The position numbers and the translations under genes are program-made. This document shows, piece by piece, positions 43,595 through 48,310 of a DNA stretch of 64,000 bases; the first letter of the stretch is position 1, and each line of letters opens with the position of its first letter. The DNA is taken from assembly GCF_017875315.1 (NCBI RefSeq), contig NZ_JAGGMM010000002.1, positions 434,001 to 498,000 of the forward strand. Direction: 5' to 3'. The notes beneath the pieces are model-generated. The model worked only from the letters and a program-made list of their open reading frames with translations. It was not told the origin of the DNA and did not search any database. The DNA comes from Methanomicrobium sp. W14. Its GTDB lineage: Archaea > Halobacteriota > Methanomicrobia > Methanomicrobiales > Methanomicrobiaceae.

Positions 43595-43933
43595 TTACAG
43601 TGCAACTGCGGCTATGGCGAGGACCGGGAGCATCGTAACAAGGGCAAGGTGCGGTGCATAGGCAGGGGCAGTCTGTATTGAGTACTTCAGAGTCGGCCAG
43701 ATTTGTGTGTATGCAGTAATTGTTGTCAGAACCTGGAGGACTGCGGCGGCAATGACTACTGCCGGGATTGCCGTCGCAACTGCTGCGATGGTTGCAGCAA
43801 AGGCTAATATCAGCACCCCGAAGTGCACTGCAAGACGCATCCCGGTCATCCGGAATGTGATGAACCCGGTGGTGATGCCGCTCAGAAGTACTGCAAGGGC
43901 AATAACAAGGTATGTGTATTCCATTTTTTTCAC
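43595..43933 (-). CDS. Small membrane protein of the DUF169/DsrE operon
   Basis: 112 residues with three or four hydrophobic helices (about 8-26, 32-50, 54-74 and 90-112) and very few charges. Ala/Val/Ile-rich; no motif recognised. The gene follows the TusA-DsrE gene after a single base, so it is translated with it. A role as membrane partner, for example for transport of a sulfur compound or electron transfer, is inferred from the operon alone. Confidence 0.7.
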   Translation of the reverse strand: MKKMEYTYLVIALAVLLSGITTGFITFRMTGMRLAVHFGVLILAFAATIAAVATAIPAVVIAAAVLQVLTTITAYTQIWPTLKYSIQTAPAYAPHLALVTMLPVLAIAAVAL

Positions 43934-43934
43934 C

Positions 43935-44780
43935 TCAGAAATTTACCACCGCGTTGGCGGGGTTACTTATAAGGTCGATATAAGTTGCTGCACCGGCTAT
44001 TGTCATGCCGGAAACGAGATTGGTCTCGTTTATACCCCGGAACTGTGCAGAAAGCTCACAGACGTAGATTTTTGCACCCGCTTTGATGACCTCGTCCATA
44101 AGACTGTCGAGCCTGTCAAATGCGGGGTGCTTTACACCTGCCGCAGCTCCCTGTCTTGCCATGCTGGCCCCGTCCATGAGCAGAAAGATTGTAACCGTCT
44201 TTCCCATAGAAAGCGCCACCTTCGAGAAGAGGAAGGTTGCATAAGCCCTTTCGGCGTTGCTTATTCCGTTGCTCTGGACGATTACGACGGATTTGCGGCT
44301 TCCTGAAAGAACAGTCTTATCTTCCGATGCCGAAACTTCGGCCTTTTCGGCGATGAGGTAGCTTTGTTCTCCCTTCTCTCCCTTCTCTATGACACGTGAG
44401 CCTTTGGCCGTTACTGCACGGGCGATGTCTTCCAGTGTGGATTTGCTTGAACACTTCACCTTAAGCCGTTCTCCTGTCTGGAGTGAGTCAAGGATGTTTC
44501 CTACGGTAATGGCGGGGCCGGGGCAGGTGTCGCCTGTTACATCTACCTCCTGCATCACGATTTCACGCGGACTCATCCTCACTTCGATGTCGTCGCCGTT
44601 TTTTCCTGTCTCAAGGGTATATCCGAACTTTGCTGCAACCTTGTCCATACCCTCCTCGGCACCGGGACTGACGAGGAATATGACTTCTTCATCTGGCCCT
44701 GCGGAATGCCTGATGACGTTTTCTGCAAGTATGCAGGAGTTCGGTGATTTTATCCCCCGTGCAGGGATTGTCTTAACCAT
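43935..44780 (-). CDS. TusA-TusA-DsrE fusion protein, probable sulfur carrier
   Basis: 281 residues with three sulfur-relay domains in one chain. Residues 1-70 resemble TusA (SPNSCILAENVI with Cys16 in a degenerate CPxP position). Residues 75-145 are a clear TusA domain, with VDVTGDTCPGPAITVGNIL (Cys86 is the persulfide carrier) and GERLKVKCSSKSTLEDI. Residues 162-281 are DsrE-like, with FLFSKVALSMGKTVTIFLLM, the KIYVCELSA active Cys (Cys241) and NAVVNF end. TusA and DsrE pass sulfane sulfur as protein persulfide. It lies three bases after the DUF169 gene. The triple fusion is unusual; acceptor and donor are unknown. Confidence 0.88.
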   Translation of the reverse strand: MVKTIPARGIKSPNSCILAENVIRHSAGPDEEVIFLVSPGAEEGMDKVAAKFGYTLETGKNGDDIEVRMSPREIVMQEVDVTGDTCPGPAITVGNILDSLQTGERLKVKCSSKSTLEDIARAVTAKGSRVIEKGEKGEQSYLIAEKAEVSASEDKTVLSGSRKSVVIVQSNGISNAERAYATFLFSKVALSMGKTVTIFLLMDGASMARQGAAAGVKHPAFDRLDSLMDEVIKAGAKIYVCELSAQFRGINETNLVSGMTIAGAATYIDLISNPANAVVNF

Positions 44781-44783
44781 GAT

Positions 44784-45464
44784 TTACCCCCACTTTTCTG
44801 CGAAGAGTTTTAGTGCTTCAACTATTCCCGGCAGTTCTTTTGGTGGTATGCCGAGGATTACCTCGTCTTCCGCGATACCCGAGTTTTTGCGTGACCCGTT
44901 GCACCCGAGAGTCATATTTAAAACGCCGCGCTGCTTTACGGCCACGACCGCATCAGCACAAACCGACTGGATCCCGGAATAATCACTCGATACTCTGCCG
45001 CCTGTGGCATACAGGTAGGCCTGGCTTAGCCTGAGAGCCTGTCTTGGTGTTGCAACTATTACTACGACGTCGGGCTCAAACTCTGCCGATTCAAGCGGAG
45101 AGTATATGGATGCGTAGGACTTTGTTGTGCATTTAGGGATTGCCGACACAGTCTCGAGTGCTCCTTCGGCGGTTTTGAAGTTGCCCAGGGTATGATACAT
45201 TTTGCCGTTTGCAACTGATTCTGGAAGCTTTTCTATTCCCATTACCCCTGCCCCGCCTTTGCAGAGGTGCTCGCTTCTTGTCGCATAGCCTTTCATGCCC
45301 TTAAGTCTTGAGTCCTGTACGAACTGGCAGTGTCTGCTCCTTTCCTGAATCTTCTGGTAGCCTGACGGTATGTCTGCTTCTGTCTCTGCAATCTTTACTG
45401 CAACAGGACTTCCTTTAAGCCCCAGTATCTCTTTCAGTTCTTTTCCTGTCTTTTCATATGACAT
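44784..45464 (-). CDS. DUF169 protein, first gene of the sulfur-relay operon
   Basis: 226 residues from ATG 45464, which has a perfect GGAGG; the longer frame to 45572 is rejected because it crosses the promoter. DUF169 features: LGLKGSPVAVKIAETEADIP, SRHCQFVQDSRLKGMKGYAT, EHLCKGGAGVMGI, and a C-terminal LNMTLGCNGSRKNSGIAEDEVILG. Several Cys are conserved-looking (in HCQFVQ, HLCKGG, PKCTTKS, SVCADA, LGCNGS), so metal or cofactor binding is likely. The family is of unknown function and frequent in anaerobes. Association with TusA/DsrE suggests sulfur or redox chemistry. Promoter AATATATTTT (minus strand, about 45553-45543) is followed by the palindromic site 45527-45540. Confidence 0.85.
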   Translation of the reverse strand: MSYEKTGKELKEILGLKGSPVAVKIAETEADIPSGYQKIQERSRHCQFVQDSRLKGMKGYATRSEHLCKGGAGVMGIEKLPESVANGKMYHTLGNFKTAEGALETVSAIPKCTTKSYASIYSPLESAEFEPDVVVIVATPRQALRLSQAYLYATGGRVSSDYSGIQSVCADAVVAVKQRGVLNMTLGCNGSRKNSGIAEDEVILGIPPKELPGIVEALKLFAEKWG

Positions 45465-45526
45465 TGTTTTTTCCTCCGGTCGTTCAATTGTCCTGGTGTC
45501 CAGGCTTCTTTTCAATTTGGTATAAC

Positions 45527-45540
45527 TATACTGTATAGTA
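45527..45540. promoter_or_regulatory. Palindromic site in the DUF169 operon promoter
   Basis: TATACTGTATAGTA, within the perfect palindrome ACTATA-CTG-TATAGT (45525-45539). It lies between the minus-strand TATA box and the expected start of transcription, so a bound protein would repress. It matches the second site at 45641-45654 in 12 of 14 bases. Confidence 0.6.
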
Positions 45541-45640
45541 CAAAATATATTAATGTTTTGATGAGATCTCATCTTTATCGGGATCTGTGTGGAGCAATAA
45601 CAGTTATATGCCGGGAAATGTTTATTGCCTAATGGAAAAT

Positions 45641-45656
45641 TATACTACATAGTATA
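45641..45656. promoter_or_regulatory. Palindromic site overlapping the start of the HTH-PAS-GAF regulator gene
   Basis: TATACT-ACAT-AGTATA is a perfect palindrome ending two bases before ATG 45658. Its first 14 bases match the site at 45527-45540 in 12 positions. This suggests that one regulator controls both directions, most simply the adjacent HTH protein acting on itself and on the DUF169 operon. Confidence 0.6.
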
Positions 45657-45657
45657 A

Positions 45658-47280
45658 ATGACGCCGGCAGATACAGATGACCTCGCAGAAACCGAATACC
45701 TGATTGTGGCATATCTGCGGTCTCACCCGCCTGAAGAGTGCATGCTTGACAAAATATCCATGGGGACAGGAAAGAGCAGGGCGACTACCCTCAAATACCT
45801 GTGGACGCTTCATGCAAAGGGAATTACGGATTACCATGAAATCGGAAGAAACAAGCTGTGGATGATGAAGCAGACTGCGGAAAGCGGCACTGAAATAATT
45901 TCGCGTAAAAAACAGGGTAATATCCCGGGAAATATTCAGAAGACTGCGCAGGCTGCATTTGAACTTCATAACCTTCTTCTAAGGGAGGCAAAGCTGCGTG
46001 ACTCCCTGGACCTTCCTGAGACCATAGTCCTGAGTGTTGCAAAAGACTATTCTATAATCGCCGGAAACAGACTTTTCGAGTCGCTTTTTCCGGAAGTAAC
46101 TAACTTTACTGACCTTGTACACCATTCCCAGACTGCAAAGCTTGAAGAACTCTTCAGGTCCGCGGTCCCGGGCAGTACTGCTTCGATAAAACTCGATATT
46201 CTTGAAAAGGCAGGAATATATCGTTCGTATAACTTCACTCTTGTATCACCGGGCCAGGGAAGCTATGGAGGTACCGGTGCATATGTACTCATCGGCGAAG
46301 ACCTGTCGGGCAGGAGGACGCGGCGGCACCTGGAATCTCTCCTGTATATTATAAGGACAGCCGCAGCGGCTCAAAATGAGGAAGACCTTTTGCGGGAGAC
46401 CCTTAAAGGGGTCAGGGAAAATCTTGTTCCGTTTGTCCATGGAAATGTCGTTATGGCTGACATGCATATAGCCTTCAGCACTGCACCTCCTTTTGAACAG
46501 TTGCAGGAATTCTTTCCTCTTCTCAGGCGCTGCATGACATCTCTTGAGACCGTATCGGAGGAGAAGGATGCGGAAACGTTCAGCTATGCGGTCGCCGTTC
46601 CCGTTATCGACGAAGAGCAGGCGGTCGGTGCGGTGCTTCTTCTTATGAAGTCTTCTCTCAGTGCGACCGAAGTGGAAAACATCGAGATAGTTGCGGATGA
46701 GATTGCAAGTGCTCTTAGGATGCAGAGGCTTGACCGGGAACGTACAGAGTTTGTCAATACTCTAATTGCGATGAACGCCGTTTCCACAATTCTTAACACC
46801 GCCTCAGACGAGAATGCAATTCTTGAGCAGTCGATTGAAGCGGCAATGGGTGCTCTTGGTTTTGAAATGGGATGCATTTATCTTAAGGATGATTCCGAAG
46901 GGATGGTGCCGAGAGTCCACCGCAATATGCCTGAAAATATCATGAAAATGTGTATAGCCGGAACTTTCAACGGTCTTTTTGAGCGTGCATTCAGGGACCA
47001 AAACCTTGTCTATGTAGTTTCCGGAACACCTGAGTATACGTCACTTCTCGACCCTTTAATCCGCGAAAACGGCGTGAAAACTCTGCTGATACTTCCTGTA
47101 AAGGCAGGCGGCCGTATTGTAGGGCTCCTTAACATGGGCAGCAGGACGGAAAAGCACTATACCAGGACAAGCCTTGATAACCTCTCCTCAATCGGGCTTC
47201 AGCTTGGTATAGCCCTTGAAAGGTCGAGGCTTGCCCGGAAACTTCGTGAGGCCGGCGGTGAGTATAAGGGGGAAGAGTAA
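45658..47280 (+). CDS. Transcriptional regulator with HTH, PAS-like and two GAF domains
   Basis: 540 residues. N-terminal winged helix (about 8-70, TEYLIVAYLRSHPPEECMLD, KSRATTLKYLWTLHAKGITD). A short coiled segment, then a PAS-like domain (about 115-215) with LSVAKDYSIIAGNRLFESLF. GAF 1 is at about 225-350 (LLYIIRTAAAAQNEEDLLRE, then GAVLLLMKSSLSATEVENIE). GAF 2 is at about 370-530 (NTASDENAILEQSIEAAMGA, GGRIVGLLNMGSRT, LDNLSSIGLQLGIALERSRL). No receiver or kinase domain is present, so it is a one-component sensor-regulator, probably ligand or redox responsive. It diverges from the DUF169/DsrE operon with matching palindromes on both sides. Confidence 0.82.
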   Translation: MTPADTDDLAETEYLIVAYLRSHPPEECMLDKISMGTGKSRATTLKYLWTLHAKGITDYHEIGRNKLWMMKQTAESGTEIISRKKQGNIPGNIQKTAQAAFELHNLLLREAKLRDSLDLPETIVLSVAKDYSIIAGNRLFESLFPEVTNFTDLVHHSQTAKLEELFRSAVPGSTASIKLDILEKAGIYRSYNFTLVSPGQGSYGGTGAYVLIGEDLSGRRTRRHLESLLYIIRTAAAAQNEEDLLRETLKGVRENLVPFVHGNVVMADMHIAFSTAPPFEQLQEFFPLLRRCMTSLETVSEEKDAETFSYAVAVPVIDEEQAVGAVLLLMKSSLSATEVENIEIVADEIASALRMQRLDRERTEFVNTLIAMNAVSTILNTASDENAILEQSIEAAMGALGFEMGCIYLKDDSEGMVPRVHRNMPENIMKMCIAGTFNGLFERAFRDQNLVYVVSGTPEYTSLLDPLIRENGVKTLLILPVKAGGRIVGLLNMGSRTEKHYTRTSLDNLSSIGLQLGIALERSRLARKLREAGGEYKGEE

Positions 47281-47776: not shown

Positions 47777-48310
47777 TCAGGGCTTCCTGAACCGGACCGT
47801 ATAATTCCACAATTTCCCTTCCGTAGTGTCTACAGAGAACCCGGCCGCTTCGCCCATAGTGATAGTCGTTCTCTTCAGCGGATAGTCCGGGATCTTCTGC
47901 AGAACTGTAACCATGTAAACGGCATCAAAAGTTTCATCCTTAAAGGGGAGAAGAAGTGCATTTCCCTGCACAAGGTCAGGCAGACTTTCTTTTTTCTTCA
48001 TTCACTGGTCAAGCATTTCCCTCTGGATGTCAAGCCTGACGACTTTTCCCTTTTGTCCTGTCGTTTTTACCGTAAAAGGCATATAACAGCAGCTCCCGCA
48101 CCCGATTTCAAGAACAGTCATTCCTTTTTTTATCCTGCTTCGGGTGAGCACTTTACCGGGCGGCTGAATTCTTCTGAGGACGTCAGAGTCAAGAAATTTT
48201 CCGATGAATGCCGGGGCAGGAAAGGGGTGGATTCTGGGGACTGCCCTTATTGTGACCTGCCATACAAGAAATATAATTATAAGCCAAAACAGTATTTCGG
48301 CAACCGACAT
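47777..48310 (-). pseudogene. Membrane-anchored class I methyltransferase gene, nonsense codon and internal deletion
   Basis: The first part (48310-48002) has an N-terminal helix (ILFWLIIIFLVWQVTI), then KKGMTVLEIGCGSCCYMPFT (motif I) and GKVVRLDIQREMLDQ. It ends in TGA at 48004-48002. The frame continues directly with SLPDLVQGNALLLPFKDETF, AVYMVTVLQKIPD, then YPLKRTTITMGEAAGF and WNYTVRFRKP to 47777. Between IPD and YPLK the usual LKPGG motif region, some 20-25 residues, is missing. Thus there are two lesions: one stop and one in-frame deletion. The substrate is unknown. It lies directly before the PPOX pseudogene, so both may have decayed as one transcription unit. Confidence 0.72.

Follow-up and report, generated by a model that had tools for sequence, protein, structure and literature searches.

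Four adjoining genes in the 2.54-Mb genome of an archaeon appear to form a dispensable, self-regulated module for the handling of sulfane (zero-valent) sulfur in methanogens, a reading to which we assign a probability of about one half. The genes, a three-gene operon and a divergent regulator, occupy positions 43595 to 47280 of the 64,000-nucleotide stretch of DNA that was analyzed (the window). The sulfur reading follows from the membership of one product, a fusion protein, in the TusA and DsrE families, and the joint travel of the genes with matching control sites across two phyla points to an undescribed, optional reactive-sulfur system. As originally predicted, no match to a described pathway was found within the open literature, where our search returned no description of the module and nothing on DUF5400, one of its protein families.

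All four genes, and two 14-mers located in the divergent promoter region, were found exactly at the positions given earlier. The operon is read from the minus strand in the order DUF169 (PF02596; 44784..45464), fusion (43935..44780), and DUF5400 (PF17379; 43595..43933), with 1-3 bases separating the genes, and the regulator gene (45658..47280) lies divergently on the plus strand; this gene order had been predicted correctly. At 47777-48310 on the minus strand of the window, a methyltransferase domain is divided between two adjoining reading frames and looks like a broken gene.

The four genes are inherited together. Among species representatives, some of them incomplete, the same gene order and divergent regulator were observed in 26/26 sampled genomes with the operon, namely 16 from the order of the host, one more from its phylum, and nine from another phylum. 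A finding that the homologues never occur together elsewhere had been named as grounds for abandoning the module; instead, they stand together in every operon-bearing genome sampled (26/26), with the regulator co-inherited. This co-occurrence, together with the recurrent sites described below, supports the initial view that the module is self-contained, with shared operators and a regulator of its own. Within the order, a close, full-length fusion (54-81% identity) is present in 16/150 genomes, one of them a draft in which it is fragmented. DUF5400 was matched in these genomes and, as a remnant, in one other; all 16 carriers show the gene order DUF169, fusion, DUF5400, with a divergent regulator. 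A phylum-wide search added a single carrier (G175). In the other phylum, the module is carried by 9 of 152 sampled genomes, the sets with the fusion and with DUF5400 being identical (9/9), and the arrangement is the same in all nine, albeit with a broken regulator frame in one; to judge by size, G+C, and gene neighbors, eight of these genomes resemble Methanothermobacter. Five loci in named records (Methanogenium cariaci, a Methanofollis, two Methanoregula, and a Methanobacteriaceae assembly) were recovered when contigs were searched with a DUF5400 alignment, whereas the contig search with a single DUF5400 sequence gave no match. At the locus of Methanogenium cariaci JCM 10550 (L083 9142-9993), the fusion is spread over several frames, which may reflect sequencing error or decay. 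DUF5400 was also matched in M. jannaschii, used as a control; if that locus held all four genes, the module would extend to a further order.

Flanking genes are constant in Methanobacteriaceae carriers and vary among Methanomicrobiales lineages; because the neighbors differ between the latter, the unit is taken to be exactly these four genes. The trees of the operon genes and of the regulator are congruent in their main clades. One genome of family f4 (G068) groups with a clade of family f1 in 4/4 trees, and this placement suggests transfer of the whole four-gene unit. The module is absent from the congeners searched. It was apparently lost by deletion in G045, where only the end of DUF5400 and the end of the regulator are left, ca. 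20 bases apart. In this scar (L058 7614-8141), DUF5400 residues 56-112 adjoin regulator residues 422-538, with the regulator part in two frames.

The fusion protein had been described as a triple sulfur relay, and two parts of that description stand. Pfam identifies DsrE (E 2.2e-20) and TusA (E 6.3e-13) domains: the TusA domain (PF01206; residues 78-139) scored 48.8 bits against a cut-off of 28.6 and contains an invariant CPGP motif with Cys86, and the DsrE domain (PF02635) scored 73.4 bits against a cut-off of 22.7. Cys86, His218, and Cys241 are all invariant in the fusion alignment. The first domain (residues ca. 1-74) has no Pfam match, shows weak similarity to the second domain when the two are set in TusA register (hhalign probability 57%, P 1e-4), and lacks the catalytic CPxP cysteine in the host protein and in 16/16 relatives. 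On these alignments it may be called TusA-like at most and, as it is Cys-less, the relay has two conserved cysteines, not three. Some carriers hold other TusA/DsrE matches, of ca. 33% identity, beside Aminotran_5 (cysteine-desulfurase-like) genes (G033 C1:2217227-2218954 and G039 C2:890090-891777); thus, the module is an additional rather than the sole relay.

The first gene of the operon encodes a DUF169 protein (E 3.1e-66; 223.6 bits against a cut-off of 27), in which Cys46, Cys68, and Cys169 are conserved in 26/26 sequences, paralogues included, and a clade-specific Cys188 in most. The AlphaFold2 model of this protein is confident (pLDDT 93.3, pTM 0.91); a fold search with it returned no solved structure (PDB) at E 0.001, and comparison of the DUF169 profile with PDB sequences gave nothing useful. 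A second DUF169, ca. 40% identical, was observed in one genome (L059 7812-8483), with no other module gene matched within the 16 kb read. The product of the last gene, initially called a small membrane protein, is indeed small and very hydrophobic, and can now be assigned to a named yet uncharacterized family, DUF5400 (E 1.1e-39; 135.2 bits against a cut-off of 25). It has invariant Arg27, His36, and His94 and, judging from hydropathy, probably about four membrane helices.

The 14-mers at 45527-45540 and 45641-45654 share 12 of 14 bases (2/14 differ), exactly as reported at the outset. The former is the core of an 18-mer palindrome, the predicted operator A (45526..45543; CTATACTGTATAGTACAA), and the latter that of a second 18-mer, the predicted operator B (45640..45657; TTATACTACATAGTATAA), the last base of which directly precedes the regulator ATG. 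The half-sites of these palindromes are TTATAC or TTAGAC. By eye, a probable TATA box of the operon (45544..45553, minus strand; TTAATATATT) was placed directly upstream of operator A, and a probable BRE/TATA of the regulator gene at 45613..45626 on the plus strand (GGGAAATGTTTATT). TATA-like boxes directly upstream of operator A were observed across relatives, as GAAAAGTATATAT or GAAAAATTTAAATA, and operator B abuts the regulator ATG in most Methanomicrobiales; the predicted placement of one site between the operon TATA and start, and of the other beside the regulator ATG, holds and recurs across genomes. Methanothermobacter-like genomes have a clear operator A and a weak operator B that is only partly recognizable. 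Many relatives have a tandem pair of abutting 18-mers on the operon side; in the host, the neighbor of operator A at 45508-45525 is reduced to a GTATAA half. A longer DUF169 start at 45572 was dropped because the reading frame would cross operator A and because the starts in relatives correspond to 45464.

Palindromes are present in every regulator-bearing divergent region read, with 0.00-0.04 expected per random sequence, and when sequences were randomized to match the host intergenic region in dinucleotide frequencies, two such palindromes arose in 0/300 trials. In 14 whole genomes, operator copies with 0-1 mismatches occur at the module only, except for one in G037, and the module-free congener G019 has none genome-wide. 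Because, in almost all genomes, the reversed pattern has more matches with up to two mismatches (<=2) than the operator pattern itself, we claim no further target of the regulator. Two matches in the window (25233 and 25653) were rejected as operators, both being inside a coding sequence. In the metagenome-assembled Methanoregula OWC_0058, the three-gene operon is intact, the genome has no regulator, and the palindromes (L086 8066-8466) have decayed, none of them being intact; in the Methanoregula contig L087 (1160-1320), the regulator is present and both palindromes are kept. The joint loss of regulator and palindromes is what a dedicated regulator-operator pair would predict. Taken together, the sites support a dedicated, autoregulating repressor that would act on these putative operators.

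The predicted HTH-PAS-GAF-GAF architecture of the regulator was recovered from the AlphaFold2 model and Foldseek; Pfam alone gives the GAF domains only (GAF_2, E 1.5e-18, two stretches), with no HTH or PAS match. The model places a winged HTH (wHTH) at residues ca. 11-70, followed by sensory domains: PAS at ca. 120-216 and GAFs at ca. 222-335 and ca. 385-522. With a pLDDT of 83.6 and a pTM of 0.57, the packing of the domains is uncertain. Foldseek matches the model to PAS-GAF-PHY modules (E ~1e-14), which shows a predicted architecture and not light sensing; a search of the regulator profile against PDB sequences gave nothing useful. Two cysteines of the second GAF domain, C406 and C432, are invariant in 23/23 regulator sequences.

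We propose that the module works in three steps. In the first, which is well supported by sequence, the wHTH-PAS-GAF-GAF protein, presumably as a dimer, would bind the 18-bp palindromes, which lie between TATA box and start for each of the two divergent transcripts, so that operon and regulator are repressed. Repression would then be lifted by a signal that arrives at the PAS/GAF domains; this may be reactive sulfur, or an oxidant, acting on C406 and C432. Finally, DUF5400 may supply sulfur at the membrane and/or DUF169 may bind it, the four conserved cysteines of the latter likely forming a metal, Fe-S, or persulfide site; persulfide would be shuttled between Cys241 of DsrE and Cys86 of TusA, and then to an acceptor outside the operon, with the Cys-less TusA-like domain serving as a docking or structural part. 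More tentatively, and with the odds somewhat against it, DUF169 could be a new sulfur- or cluster-binding protein that acts with a new small membrane family under a PAS-GAF-GAF sulfur sensor, in an undescribed methanogen pathway of sulfur acquisition or detoxification.

Several other explanations deserve consideration. The regulator could be an activator, or an activator and repressor in one: GAF and PAS domains are found in activators too, tandem sites may favor cooperative activation, and archaeal regulators can also activate from promoter-near sites. Nevertheless, this is quite unlikely, because the TATA boxes just upstream of operator A give a repressor-like placement, operator B is at the start codon, and the operon is intact where the regulator is gone (OWC_0058). 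The wHTH of Methanothermobacter-like genomes also resembles Penicillinase_R, albeit weakly (E 0.0026, below the cut-off). Alternatively, the operon could answer metal or redox stress: DUF169 would bind a metal, the relay would repair Fe-S or protein thiols, and the regulator would sense an oxidant or metal. The four conserved DUF169 cysteines and the invariant pair in the regulator fit such a role, as does PMC4001038, where the Desulfovibrio mutants listed for high fitness on nitrate include a DUF169 gene close to a TauE-like one. We consider this account unlikely, since TusA and DsrE domains suggest that the cargo is sulfur, although the present data do not separate metal or redox stress from sulfane sulfur as the signal.

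A cargo of sulfur would also suit a housekeeping relay of the Tus type, devoted to tRNA thiolation or cofactor sulfur, and both the TusA and DsrE/TusD homology of the fusion and the occasional clustering of DUF169 with SepRS (PMC8762117) point that way. The patchy distribution (16/150 genomes in the order, 9/152 in the other phylum, none in the congeners searched, and apparent deletion from G045) makes this distinctly improbable, as do a dedicated regulator, which is atypical of housekeeping, and the fact that the module fusion, unlike other TusA/DsrE matches in some carriers, does not adjoin a cysteine-desulfurase-like gene. Selenium, rather than sulfur, would be handled if the fusion were an archaeal YedF working with the membrane protein, as proposed for YedF-YedE. 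The TusA-DsrE domain order is that of YedF, the fusion gives a sub-threshold match to selenium_YedF, YedE/YedF are tied to selenium, and DUF169 is in the STRING list for YedE (PMC5322559); in addition, selenium depletion raises a TusA/DsrE pair in M. maripaludis (PMC11097638), which we count as a lead only. However, SelD is above its cut-off in only 1/23 module carriers and absent from the host genome, and its absence from the other 22 mostly refutes this reading, leaving it very improbable indeed. The match of the fusion to selenium_YedF (TIGR03527) is below threshold (49.8 versus 110 bits), and with SelD also missing we rejected it as a family member. Moreover, DUF5400 is not YedE, the fusion has an extra Cys-less domain, and its DsrE cysteine lies outside the CGxC motif given for YedF in PMC5322559. 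The handling of sulfane sulfur remains our preferred reading.

Apart from the use of free sulfide, the acquisition and movement of sulfur in methanogens are poorly understood. The module is a bounded four-gene unit, found in Methanothermobacter-like genomes and several Methanomicrobiales lineages, for which exact residues and DNA sites can be named. It would provide the first function for DUF169, and its predicted archaeal regulator-operator pair is a clean one, conserved across two phyla.

Persulfide relay is the known mode of the TusA/TusBCD and DsrE/DsrEFH families, with which the module shares the TusA CPxP cysteine and the DsrE-domain cysteine, both invariant. It differs from them in that both domains belong to a single chain, preceded there by a Cys-less TusA-like domain, and in that the operon lacks a desulfurase and adds DUF169, a membrane protein, and its own regulator. 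YedF/YedE likewise combine a TusA-DsrE fusion with a membrane protein, but the module fusion is below the family cut-off, SelD is missing in almost all carriers, and the membrane partner is unrelated. In the thiosulfate uptake system TsuA-TsuB (YeeE-YeeD), as in the module, a TusA domain stands beside a membrane protein, and the TusA part of a solved TsuA-TsuB chain is among the matches; in contrast, DUF5400 has ca. 110 residues and belongs to a different Pfam family, and the module has an extra DsrE domain and DUF169. Finally, sHdrR and SoxR are described in PMC12423496 as ArsR-type repressors that respond to sulfane sulfur. Like them, the module regulator would be the repressor of a sulfur operon, and it may be a two-Cys sensor; its predicted architecture, however, is wHTH-PAS-GAF-GAF rather than ArsR type, and its cysteine pair is in a GAF domain.
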